A stretch of 64,000 bases of DNA from contig JAQWPM010000024.1 in assembly GCA_029245345.1 (NCBI GenBank), positions 124,001 to 188,000 of the forward strand, written 5' to 3'. The stretch comes from Longimicrobiales bacterium (GTDB lineage: Bacteria; Gemmatimonadota; Gemmatimonadetes; Longimicrobiales; Gaopeijiaceae). Below, piece by piece: positions 18,032 to 22,325 of this stretch. Position 1 is the stretch's first letter. Each line of letters starts with the position of its first letter. The notes beneath the pieces were generated by a model. The model saw only the letters and a list, made by a program, of their open reading frames with translations, was not told where the DNA came from and made no database searches. Position numbers and translations under genes: made by a program.

Positions 18032-18514
18032 ATGGACCAACTGGATTCGGGGATGTTTAGGGATGTGATGAGTCGGTTCCCGACCGGCGTCACCGTCGTA
18101 GCTGCCGTTACGGCCGACGGTACCCCGAGGGGACTGACTGTTAACGCGTTCACCTCGGTCTCTCTGGACCCTCCTCTCGTGCTCGTCTGTATCGATAGAA
18201 AGGCGTCGTCCCACGACCCACTCATTGCTGCGGGTGCTTTCTGTGTGACGATCTTGGCGTCGGACCAAGCCGATGTGGCCCAACGATTCGCCGGAGATCC
18301 GGCGGTGGGGCGTTTCGACAACGTGAAGTGGATGATGAGTGAGGGAGGAAATCCGGTGCTGAGTGACGGAGCTGCTTGGTTGGACTGTGTCCTCGAACGT
18401 ATTGTGGACGCGGGCGACCACTCGATTATGATCGGCCGTGTGACCGCTTCAGGAACGTCAGAACAGGAGCCGCTGCTCTTCTACGGCGGCTCGTTCGGGA
18501 TTCGGTCCGAGTGA
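18032..18514 (+). CDS. Flavin reductase-like FMN-binding protein
   Basis: A 160-residue FMN-binding split-barrel protein of the HpaC/flavin reductase type. FRDVMSRFPTGVTVV and GLTVNAFTSVSLDPPLVLVC are the diagnostic flavin-binding blocks, and the later HSIMIGRV is also standard. Such proteins reduce free flavin with NAD(P)H for a partner monooxygenase, or bind FMN or heme. The ATG at 18032 removes an unrelated upstream extension. It is followed without a gap (GTGA) by a membrane protein and then by the SbcD/SbcC-like fusion; no obvious monooxygenase partner lies nearby. Confidence 0.87.
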   Translation: MDQLDSGMFRDVMSRFPTGVTVVAAVTADGTPRGLTVNAFTSVSLDPPLVLVCIDRKASSHDPLIAAGAFCVTILASDQADVAQRFAGDPAVGRFDNVKWMMSEGGNPVLSDGAAWLDCVLERIVDAGDHSIMIGRVTASGTSEQEPLLFYGGSFGIRSE

Positions 18515-19803
18515 CCCGCCTCGACCGCATGTTGGGTTGGCTTCCGGCTCTGTTCGTCGGGGCTGCAGCCGCGGTAGCCGCTGAGGTGGCGATCGGAATC
18601 CTTCTCTATGCGGGTACGGGGCTCATGCGGTCGTTGAGCACCGTCCTCGTCACAGAGTTGGGAGCCTTCGCAGTCGGTCTTTGGGCGATGCCCAAGTACG
18701 ACCCAAAGTTGACCGATGTGCTTCGTCGTAGGTGGGTCATGGCCTTGGTCGCCTTCCTCGGAGCCGCTGTTTTCGGCACCTCATGGACTGTTCTGCAAGA
18801 GATGGGCTCGGGCGCCGTGGGGCAGAGCATCGGTCTCGCGGTATTGGCTGCGTTCCCTCTCTACACGTGTGGGGCGATCCTAGGTGGACTTTCGGTTGCC
18901 AGCACGCACGATCTGCGCGGGCCTCTCCCCGGACCCGGCGCTCCCGCCGCGTTCGGTGCGGCGATCGGGTTCGGTATCACCGGTCTGATGCTGCCTCGGG
19001 CGCCGATGCCGTCGTCGCTGCTCATTGGGTGTCTTGTGATGCTGTCTCTGAGCGGCCTCATCTACGGAGTTGTCCTTGGCGCGCGGCCCCGCGTTGTGGT
19101 TCGTGAGGAGCGGACCACACCGTTGGGAGAGGTCAGCGTCGAAGATCGAAGCACTGGAAGGCAGGGCTCTGCGCGGGTCCTCGTTGAGGGAACTCGGTTG
19201 CGCCGTTCGCTGCGCTTGGACGAGGCTGGTGCAGATCCCTGGGACGTAACGATCGCGCGTGCTGCGATGCCAGCTCAGGAGGAGGAGTGGCGTGTGCTGG
19301 CTTTGGGCGGGGGTGTGTCTTCGCTCACTCGAGCTGTCGTGCGCGAACATCCCAGGGCGGTGGTACACGTCCTTGAGCGTACGCGGGATGTCGTTGAACT
19401 CGGGAGCGCGCACCTCGACACCGACCTCGAGATCGGCGACGCCGAGCGCCGCTCGGTACGCATCGGCAATCTGGACGACCTCATCGAGAGACTGGACGGT
19501 CAGTACGACCTAGTCTTGGTGGACGGTGACGCCTTGGCGGCTTTGGGCGGGCCTGGAGGCTTATCACGTCGCTCGCGAGAGTCGCTCGTGGCTCATGTGT
19601 CACCAGCGGGTCTGTTGGCGTGGGGGCCTCATCTAGATGGCGTAAGTGAGCCCACGTCTGTGTGGGAGCACCGAACGCTGCACCGAGAGACCGCTGAAGG
19701 AGGGACGGAGCGCATCATGATTGCTTCTCGGGCGGAACTCAGTGCGCTGGATCCCGGATTCGGTGGCTTCTCTACGTCCGTTGGAGGCCCACCGGACGTA
19801 TGA
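18511..19803 (+). CDS. Membrane protein with C-terminal spermidine-synthase-like domain
   Basis: A 430-residue protein. Residues 1-200 hold about six transmembrane segments (for example LPALFVGAAAAVAAEVAIG). The cytoplasmic C-terminal part looks like a Rossmann methyltransferase or spermidine synthase: WRVLALGGGVSSLTRA is the nucleotide-binding loop, VVHVLER the acidic end of strand two, and YDLVLVDGDALA the next strand. Fusions of a membrane domain with a spermidine-synthase-like domain are known, but catalysis is rarely shown. The start overlaps the flavin reductase stop and the end overlaps the next gene, which implies co-translation of three genes. Confidence 0.65.
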   Translation: MTRLDRMLGWLPALFVGAAAAVAAEVAIGILLYAGTGLMRSLSTVLVTELGAFAVGLWAMPKYDPKLTDVLRRRWVMALVAFLGAAVFGTSWTVLQEMGSGAVGQSIGLAVLAAFPLYTCGAILGGLSVASTHDLRGPLPGPGAPAAFGAAIGFGITGLMLPRAPMPSSLLIGCLVMLSLSGLIYGVVLGARPRVVVREERTTPLGEVSVEDRSTGRQGSARVLVEGTRLRRSLRLDEAGADPWDVTIARAAMPAQEEEWRVLALGGGVSSLTRAVVREHPRAVVHVLERTRDVVELGSAHLDTDLEIGDAERRSVRIGNLDDLIERLDGQYDLVLVDGDALAALGGPGGLSRRSRESLVAHVSPAGLLAWGPHLDGVSEPTSVWEHRTLHRETAEGGTERIMIASRAELSALDPGFGGFSTSVGGPPDV

Positions 19804-22325
19804 TCGTTGCGCATCTCTCCGACCTCCACCTCGGCTTCCGTGCCTACGGACGGATCGAACGTGGTGCGGACATGCGAGAGAGAGATATAGCGGCTGCCTT
19901 CGAACGGGCCATCCAAGAAGTCGTCCGAATTGCTCCGCAGGTCATCGTGGTCGCGGGGGATGTGTTTGACCGGCCAGACCCACCTGCCAGCGCCGTCGTA
20001 GCTTTAGCCAGAGGACTGGAAGTGCTCCGGGCGTCCCTCCCTGACACGCCGGTGCTTATGGTGGCGGGCCCGAGGGACACCCCGAGGCGGCCCGGGGATC
20101 CCGGCGCTCTCGCGGTGCTGGATACGTTTCCGAACGTCGAAGCTGCTACAGGACTCACCCGGTCGATCCTCATGGAGAAGCTCGGGCTGCATGCGTGTCT
20201 GGTTCCGTATCGGGCGGCTGCACGGCACCCCCCGGCCATTCCAGAATCTGACCCACGTATGAAGTGGAACCTCCTCGTGCTCCACGGAACCGCGGAGACT
20301 TCGGGTGAGGAGGGCGTCCACGTCGACCCGGACGAGTGGAACTACGTCGCGTTGGGCGGCGCACACCGTAGAGGGTCGGTTGCGGATAATGTACGCTACT
20401 CAGGCTCGCTGGAACGGGTCGCGCTTGACCCTTGGGAGGAGGCCGCCGACGAAAAGGGCTTTCTCACGGTCGACCTAGAGACCGGTGAGACGACGTTCCG
20501 ATCGATTCCTAGTCGGCCGGTCGTTGCTTTGGCTCCAGTGAAGGTCGTCTCCGGTGATCCCAAGAACTTGCAGCGCCGGGTCAAAGAGGTGACCGACGAA
20601 GTGCCGGGCGGCATCGACGGTAAGATCGTGCGGCTGCGGCTGGCGGGTGCGTCGCCGGAAGATCTCTTGGCGCTTCAGGGCGACCAGTTGGGCGAACTTC
20701 GAAAGCGCGCACTTCACCTCACGGTAGAAGCAGGCAAAGAAGTCCGCGTGCCTTCCGCTGTCTGGCTCCCATTGGATGCTCCCGGTCTTCTGCGGGACGC
20801 GCTCGAAGCCGAGCTCGAACGGGATGGCGTCCTTGGCGAGAGCACTCGGGACGTCGTATGGAGTTTGGTCCCGAACGAACTGCGTGCGGAGATGGACTCG
20901 GAGACCATCGGGGCTCTTGATGCGCTGGACGGAGACATCGCAGGTGTTGGGCGTGTGAGCACCTCTCTGCCCACAGGACTGACTGCGGTGATCGGCGGTG
21001 GTGGACGTGCTCGAAGAGCGGTGGCAGAGCTACTTCTGCGTGAGGGAGGAGGTTGGGCTGGCGGCGCGCTCCGGCGGTTGTGGGGCGGACGGGACAGCGA
21101 GACGCTCGACGACGCGGTTCGCCTCGCCATCGAAGCGGTGGCCGTGAGCCGGGGACTCGCCGTAGTCGACGCGGCGCTCGCGCGAGGCGGAGCTCGGAGT
21201 GATGCCGATCATTTGGCCCCTAGGACGAACGGCAGCCGCGGAGAGGATCGACCGGTTCGTGGCGCGGTCCGGGTAGATCCTGAACAGGTCTCTGCGGAGT
21301 TCCGCTCCGCGGAGCGCGACCTTCAGGAGCTCCGGGCAGATGTCGTCGAGGTCGACGGGGACCTCGAGGTCGCAACCATGGACTGGCTTCGTGAAAGGCA
21401 GGATGCTGAAACCACCCTACATGCATACCGCGATCGAGCTCGTGAGCTCAGGACTCGCCTGAAACAGATGGAAGCTGCAGGCCCGGAGGCACCGTGCCTC
21501 ACTTGTGGTCGGGTTTTGGACAGCCACTACGAGGAAGTGCTTTCCGAACTCACCGACGACTGGGAGTCCGTGGTACAAGACGGAAGTTGGTGGAAGAGCC
21601 GTTGGGAGCAACTCGAAATGAAGCCGGCGTATCTCCAGGAATTAGAAGGCCGATCCCTGCGGTTGCATGCGGCGTTGGAGGGCGGATCGGAGCGCGTGGA
21701 ACTCCTCCGCGCCCGTCTTCTCGAGTTGGGTCCGGTCGACACCGTCGAGGAGCTCGGTGAGATCCAACAGGGTCCGCTTGGGGATGTCATCGCATCTCTG
21801 AAACGCATCAGAGCGGTTCGTGCGAGCAGAGCGACGGACATGTTGCTCGATCGAGCCTCACGATTTGTGTGCCGCATTTCAGGGGGACGCATTCTCGCAA
21901 TTACCCGGGTTGATGGTCGGGCGGTGCTCCAGGGAGACCGAGGAATCTTGACCCCCGTGTCAGAAGAGGACTTGGCCACTGCTCGCGTGGCCACACGACT
22001 GGCCGCTGCGTCGCTCGTTGCAGCGGGCGGGCGGGTGCTAGGTTCGTTGGTTCTCGAGGAGCCCTTCGATCGACTCGACGTGGAGGCCCGGATTCGCACG
22101 TTAGTACTCACGCAGAAGCTTCTCCGTGAGATCCCCCGGATTATCCTGTTCAGCCGGGGAGAAGCGGTCGATGCCCGCCCCGAGCTCTTCGACTCGATTC
22201 TCGAGGTTCGAGAGGAGGCGTCCGGAATGGGGCCGGCTCTGAGGCCAGCGGCTTCGGGGCCGGGACGCGTGTTGCTCCGTGCTCCGGTGAAGCCCGCCCA
22301 AGGAACTGCAACCTTTCCTTCTTAG
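19800..22325 (+). CDS. SbcD/Mre11-like and SbcC/Rad50-like fusion with degenerate motifs
   Basis: An 841-residue protein. Residues 1-240 follow SbcD: SDLHLG (7-12), GDVFDRPDPP (53-62), VADNVRYSGS (194-203). Two metal motifs are altered: the usual GNHD is GPRD (90-93), and GHxH is GGAH (186-189). Residues 390-410 hold a glycine-rich GGGGRARRA where a Walker A could have been. Residues 495-680 are probable coiled coil interrupted by CLTC (566-569), a zinc-hook-like CxxC. Residues 721-760 resemble the Rad50 signature and Walker B end, finishing LEEPFDRLD. Normal SbcC has Walker A at its N terminus; none is seen. It may be a structural or altered Mre11-Rad50-type protein. ATGA overlap links it to the membrane protein upstream. 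Confidence 0.7.
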   Translation: MIVAHLSDLHLGFRAYGRIERGADMRERDIAAAFERAIQEVVRIAPQVIVVAGDVFDRPDPPASAVVALARGLEVLRASLPDTPVLMVAGPRDTPRRPGDPGALAVLDTFPNVEAATGLTRSILMEKLGLHACLVPYRAAARHPPAIPESDPRMKWNLLVLHGTAETSGEEGVHVDPDEWNYVALGGAHRRGSVADNVRYSGSLERVALDPWEEAADEKGFLTVDLETGETTFRSIPSRPVVALAPVKVVSGDPKNLQRRVKEVTDEVPGGIDGKIVRLRLAGASPEDLLALQGDQLGELRKRALHLTVEAGKEVRVPSAVWLPLDAPGLLRDALEAELERDGVLGESTRDVVWSLVPNELRAEMDSETIGALDALDGDIAGVGRVSTSLPTGLTAVIGGGGRARRAVAELLLREGGGWAGGALRRLWGGRDSETLDDAVRLAIEAVAVSRGLAVVDAALARGGARSDADHLAPRTNGSRGEDRPVRGAVRVDPEQVSAEFRSAERDLQELRADVVEVDGDLEVATMDWLRERQDAETTLHAYRDRARELRTRLKQMEAAGPEAPCLTCGRVLDSHYEEVLSELTDDWESVVQDGSWWKSRWEQLEMKPAYLQELEGRSLRLHAALEGGSERVELLRARLLELGPVDTVEELGEIQQGPLGDVIASLKRIRAVRASRATDMLLDRASRFVCRISGGRILAITRVDGRAVLQGDRGILTPVSEEDLATARVATRLAAASLVAAGGRVLGSLVLEEPFDRLDVEARIRTLVLTQKLLREIPRIILFSRGEAVDARPELFDSILEVREEASGMGPALRPAASGPGRVLLRAPVKPAQGTATFPS

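Follow-up and report, generated by a model that had tools for sequence, protein, structure and literature searches.

A single-chain Mre11-Rad50-like protein of Longimicrobiales with lost ATPase motifs and an altered nuclease site

In 2011, Yoshida reported fusions of Mre11 with Rad50 from Mimivirus (R555), a Clostridium kluyveri plasmid, Deferribacter, Dictyostelium and other sources (PMC3175470). They likewise have an Mre11-like N half and a Rad50-like C half, with a capping domain and a helix-loop-helix between them (PMC3175470). One P-loop segment was likewise not seen in the Anaerostipes and Bacillus phage fusions (PMC3175470). Here we consider an 841-residue protein of this general kind, encoded in a window of 64,000 nucleotides (the whole stretch analysed) from a Longimicrobiales bacterium (assembly GCA_029245345.1, contig JAQWPM010000024.1, positions 124,001 to 188,000). 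A preliminary description of the window, based on its letters, held that such halves are two proteins in known systems and suggested a new architecture. The 2011 report supersedes the first of these statements and means that the fused architecture alone is not new. What survives of the suggestion is that the loss of the ATPase motifs is shared by related proteins under purifying selection. The anatomical and evolutionary account of the protein that follows is one we hold with very high confidence; its function is a matter of much more tentative proposals.

Anatomy of the protein and its two altered sites

The gene is an exact open reading frame (ORF) with an ATG start, and the protein is made up of the following parts.

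19800-22325, plus strand: single-chain Mre11-Rad50-like protein, 841 residues (stop codon included; 19800-22322 without it)
19800-20534, plus strand: Mre11-type metallophosphoesterase core, residues 1-245 (profile and PDB sequence matches, motifs, VIA-align)
20067-20078, plus strand: motif III, remodelled, GPRD (residues 90-93) for GNHD, with R92 for the catalytic His (residue counts)
20535-20909, plus strand: Mre11 capping domain and C-terminal helix-loop-helix (Rad50-binding element), residues 246-370 (model, structural alignment)
20910-21194, plus strand: Rad50 lobe I remnant, residues 371-465, with a degenerate P-loop, GGGGRARR, near residues 398-406 (models, alignment)
21276-21488, plus strand: ascending coiled coil, residues 493-563 (a single helix, 494-563, in the model)
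21465-21635, plus strand: zinc-hook apex, residues 556-612, with CLTC at residues 566-569 and VQDGxWWxxRxxQLExKP (conserved columns)
21636-21869, plus strand: descending coiled coil, residues 613-690 (both models)
21870-22274, plus strand: Rad50 lobe II remnant, residues 691-825, with degenerate signature, Walker B and H-loop (alignment; Rad50 sequence matches)

Sequence searches and two AlphaFold models are concordant in assigning residues 1-360 to an Mre11/SbcD fold and residues 371-825 to a Rad50 fold with a CxxC zinc hook. The full-length AlphaFold (AF2) model, built on an input alignment of 42 related sequences, has a mean predicted local distance difference test score (pLDDT) of 89.4 and a predicted template modelling score (pTM) of 0.77. 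Metallophos is the only Pfam family matched above cut-off (5e-5). The N half matches the NCBIfam models Mre11_Sulfo (1e-13), PRK10966 (1e-10) and sbcd (2e-10); the last of these, TIGR00619, gives 40.9 bits, under its cut-off of 77.65 bits, against 84.7 bits for the intact relative L059. Among PDB sequences, the N half matches Mre11 chains of Methanocaldococcus jannaschii (1.5e-14), and residues 586-792 match Rad50 chains of Pyrococcus furiosus (2e-7). The SbcD-like and Rad50-like parts noticed earlier in one chain are thus confirmed, as are the GPRD, GGAH and CLTC motifs and the missing Walker A.

The Mre11 half retains its fold. Residues 1-312 align with MjMre11 (4tug_D) at Z 27.9 over 280 residues by VIA-align, the AF2 model has helices at residues 327-341 and 347-356, and an alignment with 3av0_A reaches residue 360. 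The core motifs are HLSDLHLG (residues 5-12), AGDVFD (52-57), AGPRDTP (89-95), LVLHG (159-163) and ALGGAH (184-189), in the last of which GGAH (186-189) replaces GHxH. The fold and capping domain of Mre11 are present, and the complete two-metal centre with its catalytic His (DxH, GD, GNHD, H, GHxH) is not. Residues of the site were counted in 78 N domains, the window protein included. D8 (77/78), H10 (76/78), D54 (76/78) and H189 (75/78), which we take to be one metal site from the ligand sets of P. furiosus Mre11 mapped via PDB sequence alignment, are kept at 96-99%. The His position of GNHD is Arg in 76 of the 78 domains and His in none, while it is His in 12/12 intact relatives; the Asn is kept in 0/78 and D93 in 77/78. 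The first His of GHxH survives in 6/78, the motif IV His in 48/78, and the second-metal ligands vary freely. On these ligand sets, metal site one is complete, site two is lost and the catalytic His is exchanged for Arg. Because one full metal-ligand set and the new Arg are conserved at 96-99%, the nuclease centre is remodelled and has not decayed at random. In Escherichia coli SbcD, the H84Q exchange gives a nuclease-deficient enzyme (PMC6265447). A second copy of the altered Mre11 domain, N half only (331-residue frame), lies at G010:C209:11573-12547.

This pattern of conservation has a possible explanation in a new activity. The Mre11 part may be a re-purposed one-metal phosphoesterase, or a phosphate or nucleotide sensor, with D8/H10/D54/H189 and R92 acting on the 5' phosphate of DNA or on some small phosphoester, by binding or by cleavage, while the hook-dimerised Rad50 rump serves only to oligomerise it. 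The counts of the metal-1 ligands, R92 and D93, set against the free variation at the second site, speak for it, and the Mre11 half also has the lowest ratio of nonsynonymous to synonymous substitution rates (dN/dS) of the large domains (0.014-0.12). However, losing the equivalents of Asn84 and His85 normally abolishes two-metal catalysis, the metal could be retained for folding alone, and the gene neighbourhood hints at no substrate. We regard such an enzyme or sensor as unlikely, but as the main rival to the scaffold preferred below.

The C half has kept the Rad50 fold and lost the ATPase motifs. Modelled alone (pLDDT 84.8), it has P. furiosus Rad50 (3qkt_A) as its best Foldseek and VIA match (E value 7e-8; Z 16.9 over 250 residues, 4.0 Å), which agrees with the earlier assignment of residues 390-760 to a Rad50-like region; SMC and RecF heads rank closely after Rad50, as expected in this superfamily. 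In the full model, residues 371-818 match the Rad50 ABC-ATPase at Z 17.3. The ABC head is thus Rad50-like and interrupted by a coiled coil, but the Rad50/SbcC motif set of Walker A, signature, Walker B and H-loop is absent. GGGGRARR aligns with GPNGAGKS of intact relatives, and in the alignment the P-loop remnant PTGLTAVIGGGGRARRAVAELL occupies the position of RPGLTGIIGPNGAGKSTILEAI. GxxxxGK[ST] was not found in the window protein, nor was a Walker A in any of 80 related loci. The signature reads VSEED against ISGGEE in intact proteins, Walker B LVLEEPF against LILDEVF, and the H-loop LFS against ITH; all three are lost across the aligned family members and intact in every aligned relative from the sister families f2 and f3. 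The distance from the P-loop position to the hook cysteines is 167 residues, compared to 375 in every intact relative measured, and therefore the arms are under half their usual length.

The hook has been treated quite differently. CxxC is found in 80/80 loci, so that a Rad50 zinc hook is present by sequence (with zinc binding predicted), and the hook columns are the most conserved ones outside the nuclease core. The two lobes are poorly conserved by comparison: the mean frequency of the commonest residue is 0.39 in lobe I, 0.47 in lobe II, 0.63 in the nuclease core and 0.67 in the hook apex. The motif VQDGxWWxxRxxQLExKP follows CxxC in intact and altered Gemmatimonadota proteins alike; it may be where a partner binds to the hook. 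Both active sites had been described as degraded at the outset; this description fits the ATPase, which is the truly decayed part, and does not fit the nuclease centre, with its conserved D8/H10/D54/H189 and R92.

Distribution, ancestry and neighbouring genes

The altered gene is present in 98 of 121 genomes of the window's family. Scanning the GTDB species genomes brought up 203 relatives, and the counts of loci given here refer to the best 80 (L089-L168), whose titles are of Gemmatimonadota, Gemmatimonadetes or Longimicrobiales type except for one titled Gammaproteobacteria. The gene is one fused ORF in 50 of these loci, two ORFs in 28 and a C half alone in 2; one locus, L115 of G024, is counted among the 28 only because of a run of N. 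Fusion is therefore not the constant feature of the family, and the split loci carry the same motif losses as the fused ones. In most split loci the second gene starts a few bases before the first one ends, within ATGA or GTGA. A local fusion by misassembly or frameshift is ruled out by the 50 fused loci in many metagenome-assembled genomes, including the single-contig genome G022.

The locus has an ordinary ancestry. Both in f2 and f3, sister families within the order, and in the families f4, f5 and f9 of the same class, a two-gene pair stands at the orthologous locus, with an SbcD of about 400 residues carrying GNHD and GHYH or GHHH followed by a Rad50 of about 810 residues carrying SGGE and CPTC. 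GPNGxGK[ST] is found in all intact pairs except L175 and L176, where the search pattern failed to match. The hook flanks WxRDRQxAxT..YRDR..ELK...CPTCxRPL...VQDGKWW..R.EQL..KP occur in the altered proteins as well as in the intact Rad50s of f3, and because these flanks are shared, the two are considered orthologous. In the tree, 76 altered sequences form one clade, separate from 13 sequences of the intact families (Shimodaira-Hasegawa-like approximate likelihood ratio test, SH-aLRT, 100), and the window protein sits in an all-fused clade of 28. The fused or split state changes seven times by parsimony, with at least three changes on starred branches. Given the intact pairs of the sister families tested, the single altered clade and the multiple changes of the fused or split state on the tree, the catalytic motifs were lost once, at the base of the window's family and before fusion; fusion followed repeatedly, with possible re-splitting. 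One f3 genome, G054, has two SbcCD-like pairs, L065 (G054:C53) and L088 (G054:C23); one of its D subunits has GDRD and GHHP, with a Walker A in its Rad50, an independent change of nuclease motifs.

The possibility that the gene is a decaying relic without function deserves next to no credence. Every ATPase motif is lost and the gene is missing from about a fifth of the family genomes, as a relic might be. Against this, whole-protein dN/dS (NG86) is far below 1, at 0.03-0.19, and at 0.05-0.19 in closer pairs, in which dS is not saturated; the frames are open in dozens of genera, and the hook and metal residues are invariant. The relic or pseudogene reading is refuted by this selection test. The least constrained part is lobe I, for which a single pair of very close sequences reaches 0.6. 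Purifying selection has kept the Mre11 fold, the Rad50 fold and, foremost, the zinc-hook apex. The preliminary description had made its case depend on relatives sharing the altered motifs, and had allowed for a decayed single copy; close relatives do share them, as seen in the Walker A and GNHD counts above, and the single-copy explanation falls away.

Two further genes precede the Mre11-Rad50 gene in the same run.

18032-18514, plus strand: flavin reductase gene, first in the run (PF01613, E value 2.1e-43)
18505-19803, plus strand: membrane protein with a degenerate spermidine-synthase-like domain (NCBIfam speE, 1e-3; at least five hydrophobic segments)

The stop of the membrane gene overlaps the start of the Mre11-Rad50 gene by 4 nucleotides (GTATGA), and the flavin reductase is conserved upstream in 75 loci. 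In the membrane protein, the SAM-site region is degenerate, and the GGGDG-like motif of the spermidine-synthase-like domain is altered to GGGVS. In one group of split loci its soluble domain is gone and the membrane half is kept; this protein too may have been losing catalysis, in parallel with its neighbour. It could be argued that this protein anchors the hook protein and that DNA is held at the membrane, since the two genes overlap by 4 nucleotides or lie within 12 nucleotides of each other in 61/80 loci, and since the membrane half alone persists in those split loci. However, homologues of both upstream genes also precede the intact SbcCD genes of f2 and f3, and no membrane gene was detected in several clades that retain the altered protein (L104-L107, L110, L111, L113, L145, L146 and L148). 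We consider a membrane-linked complex very improbable. The two genes named earlier as made together with the protein are real, but because both precede intact SbcCD and one is missing from some altered clades, they are inherited operon surroundings and do not argue for a new complex. As specific partners they were ruled out, the gene arrangement being older than the loss of catalysis.

Possible roles

Our preferred proposal, which we advance tentatively and at somewhat below an even chance, is that the protein is an ATP-independent, hook-dimerised scaffold or tether that binds DNA. Its ancestor, as part of the evolutionary account that we hold more firmly, was a conventional catalytic SbcCD encoded by two genes in Gemmatimonadota. 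When the window's family arose, the Rad50 part lost Walker A, signature, Walker B and H-loop, and presumably ATP binding and hydrolysis with them; the nuclease site went from a two-metal centre to a conserved one-metal centre with Arg for the catalytic His. In Rad50 the hook dimerises constitutively (PMC6969161) and, by analogy with other Rad50s, two chains may join via the zinc hook, and perhaps also via the Mre11 domains. ATP-driven head engagement would be impossible. The remodelled Mre11 heads would bind DNA, probably at ends or backbone phosphate, such that two DNA segments may be tethered, or presented to other enzymes such as an AddAB-type nuclease. PDDEXK_1 matches of AddAB/RecB type are present in the window's own genome; a Ku gene was not found there.

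Several points weigh against a scaffold. D8/H10/D54/H189 and R92 could form an active site of another kind, in which case the protein may be more than a scaffold. How a tether could load or release DNA with no ATP to open and close it has yet to be worked out, and the short arms make long-distance bridging less likely. A few members have lost still more: in the most extreme of them, L056/L126 of G002, DxH is also gone, with NPRLG for DLHLG. The Rad50 part of this member seems to begin past the P-loop region, and its hook motif is intact. A further possibility, which we think doubtful, is an ATP-free machine of Mre11-Rad50 type, in which the motor has been given up throughout the family, the hook acts as a permanent clamp and the site of one metal and Arg recognises or slowly hydrolyses a specific phosphate, e.g., a DNA 5' end.

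A second pair of Mre11-Rad50 type, of the YhaO/YhaN kind (AAA_27 and Metallophos), lies on the same contig outside the window at about G000:C24:205175-209226 (L071:2176-6227, minus strand), with intact motifs (TGNHDP, ALGHVHIR, GPNEAGKS). The altered protein may be a regulatory pseudo-enzyme that pairs or competes with this pair and tunes YhaON. Most genomes of the family hold both the YhaO-like gene and the altered protein, as such a role might predict. However, the co-occurrence is not strict (altered protein without YhaO-like gene in G006, G019 and G028, the reverse in G008, G016 and G033), the two pairs are only distantly related, and the YhaN-like partner shows no such hook; we judge this role improbable. 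Canonical SbcCD (TIGR00619 above cut-off) was found in five f1 genomes among those first sampled, together with the altered protein in G022, G025 and G026 and without it in G009 and G012.

Because mutants often lose both, it is difficult to tell the structural contribution of Mre11-Rad50 from its enzymatic one. The family represents a natural test of Mre11-Rad50 architecture, whose folds and hook it has retained throughout its history without the ATPase and two-metal nuclease motifs. Intact orthologues of neighbouring families can serve as controls, and the invariant exchange of Arg for His singles out a specific remodelled pocket for study.

Comparison with known systems

Searches of the literature found nothing on a named non-catalytic fused Mre11-Rad50 family, or on SbcCD in Gemmatimonadota, beyond the 2011 fusion paper; nor did the searched literature contain an ATPase-dead form that is inherited vertically across a whole family and has a conserved pocket of one metal and Arg. 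The archaea-specific SMC-related proteins (ASRP, PMC9389158) give a weak NCBIfam profile match (E value 0.05 for the window protein, 1e-4 for a split relative), and membership is not supported, since the match covers the coil and hook only. Anti-phage SMC-like systems (Wadjet/JetC, Lamassu) were also rejected: in PADLOC, which called no defence system, the window protein matched JetC2 weakly through its coiled coil (3.5e-4), and the two upstream genes matched nothing.

The YhaO/YhaN-type pair likewise consists of Mre11-like and Rad50-like partners and occurs in the same genome. It differs in having intact motifs, in being two genes and in that a conserved CxxC hook was not seen, and it is a distant paralogue. 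The window protein lacks the AAA_27 head (no match in the Pfam search) and the intact metallophosphoesterase, in two genes, that mark this type.

The folds and domain order are those of SbcCD/Mre11-Rad50 from other Gemmatimonadota families, E. coli and archaea. The intact Gemmatimonadota pair also has the same residues flanking the zinc hook and the same operon position, and it is evidently from the local operonic SbcCD pair that the altered protein derives. Compared to SbcCD/Mre11-Rad50, the ATPase motifs are gone, the second metal site and the catalytic His are replaced, the arms are under half the length, and the protein is often a single chain. The fusions described in 2011 are scattered, remote from canonical genes and tied to mobile elements (PMC3175470), whereas the altered protein is inherited within one family. 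A separate, laterally spread lineage of that kind was not observed: the altered proteins form a clade beside intact Gemmatimonadota pairs, in the same operon context, in a tree that covers Gemmatimonadota sequences and not the 2011 fusions. Finally, R555 retains its Walker motifs and most nuclease residues (PMC3175470), whereas the altered protein is without the catalytic motifs whether fused or split.

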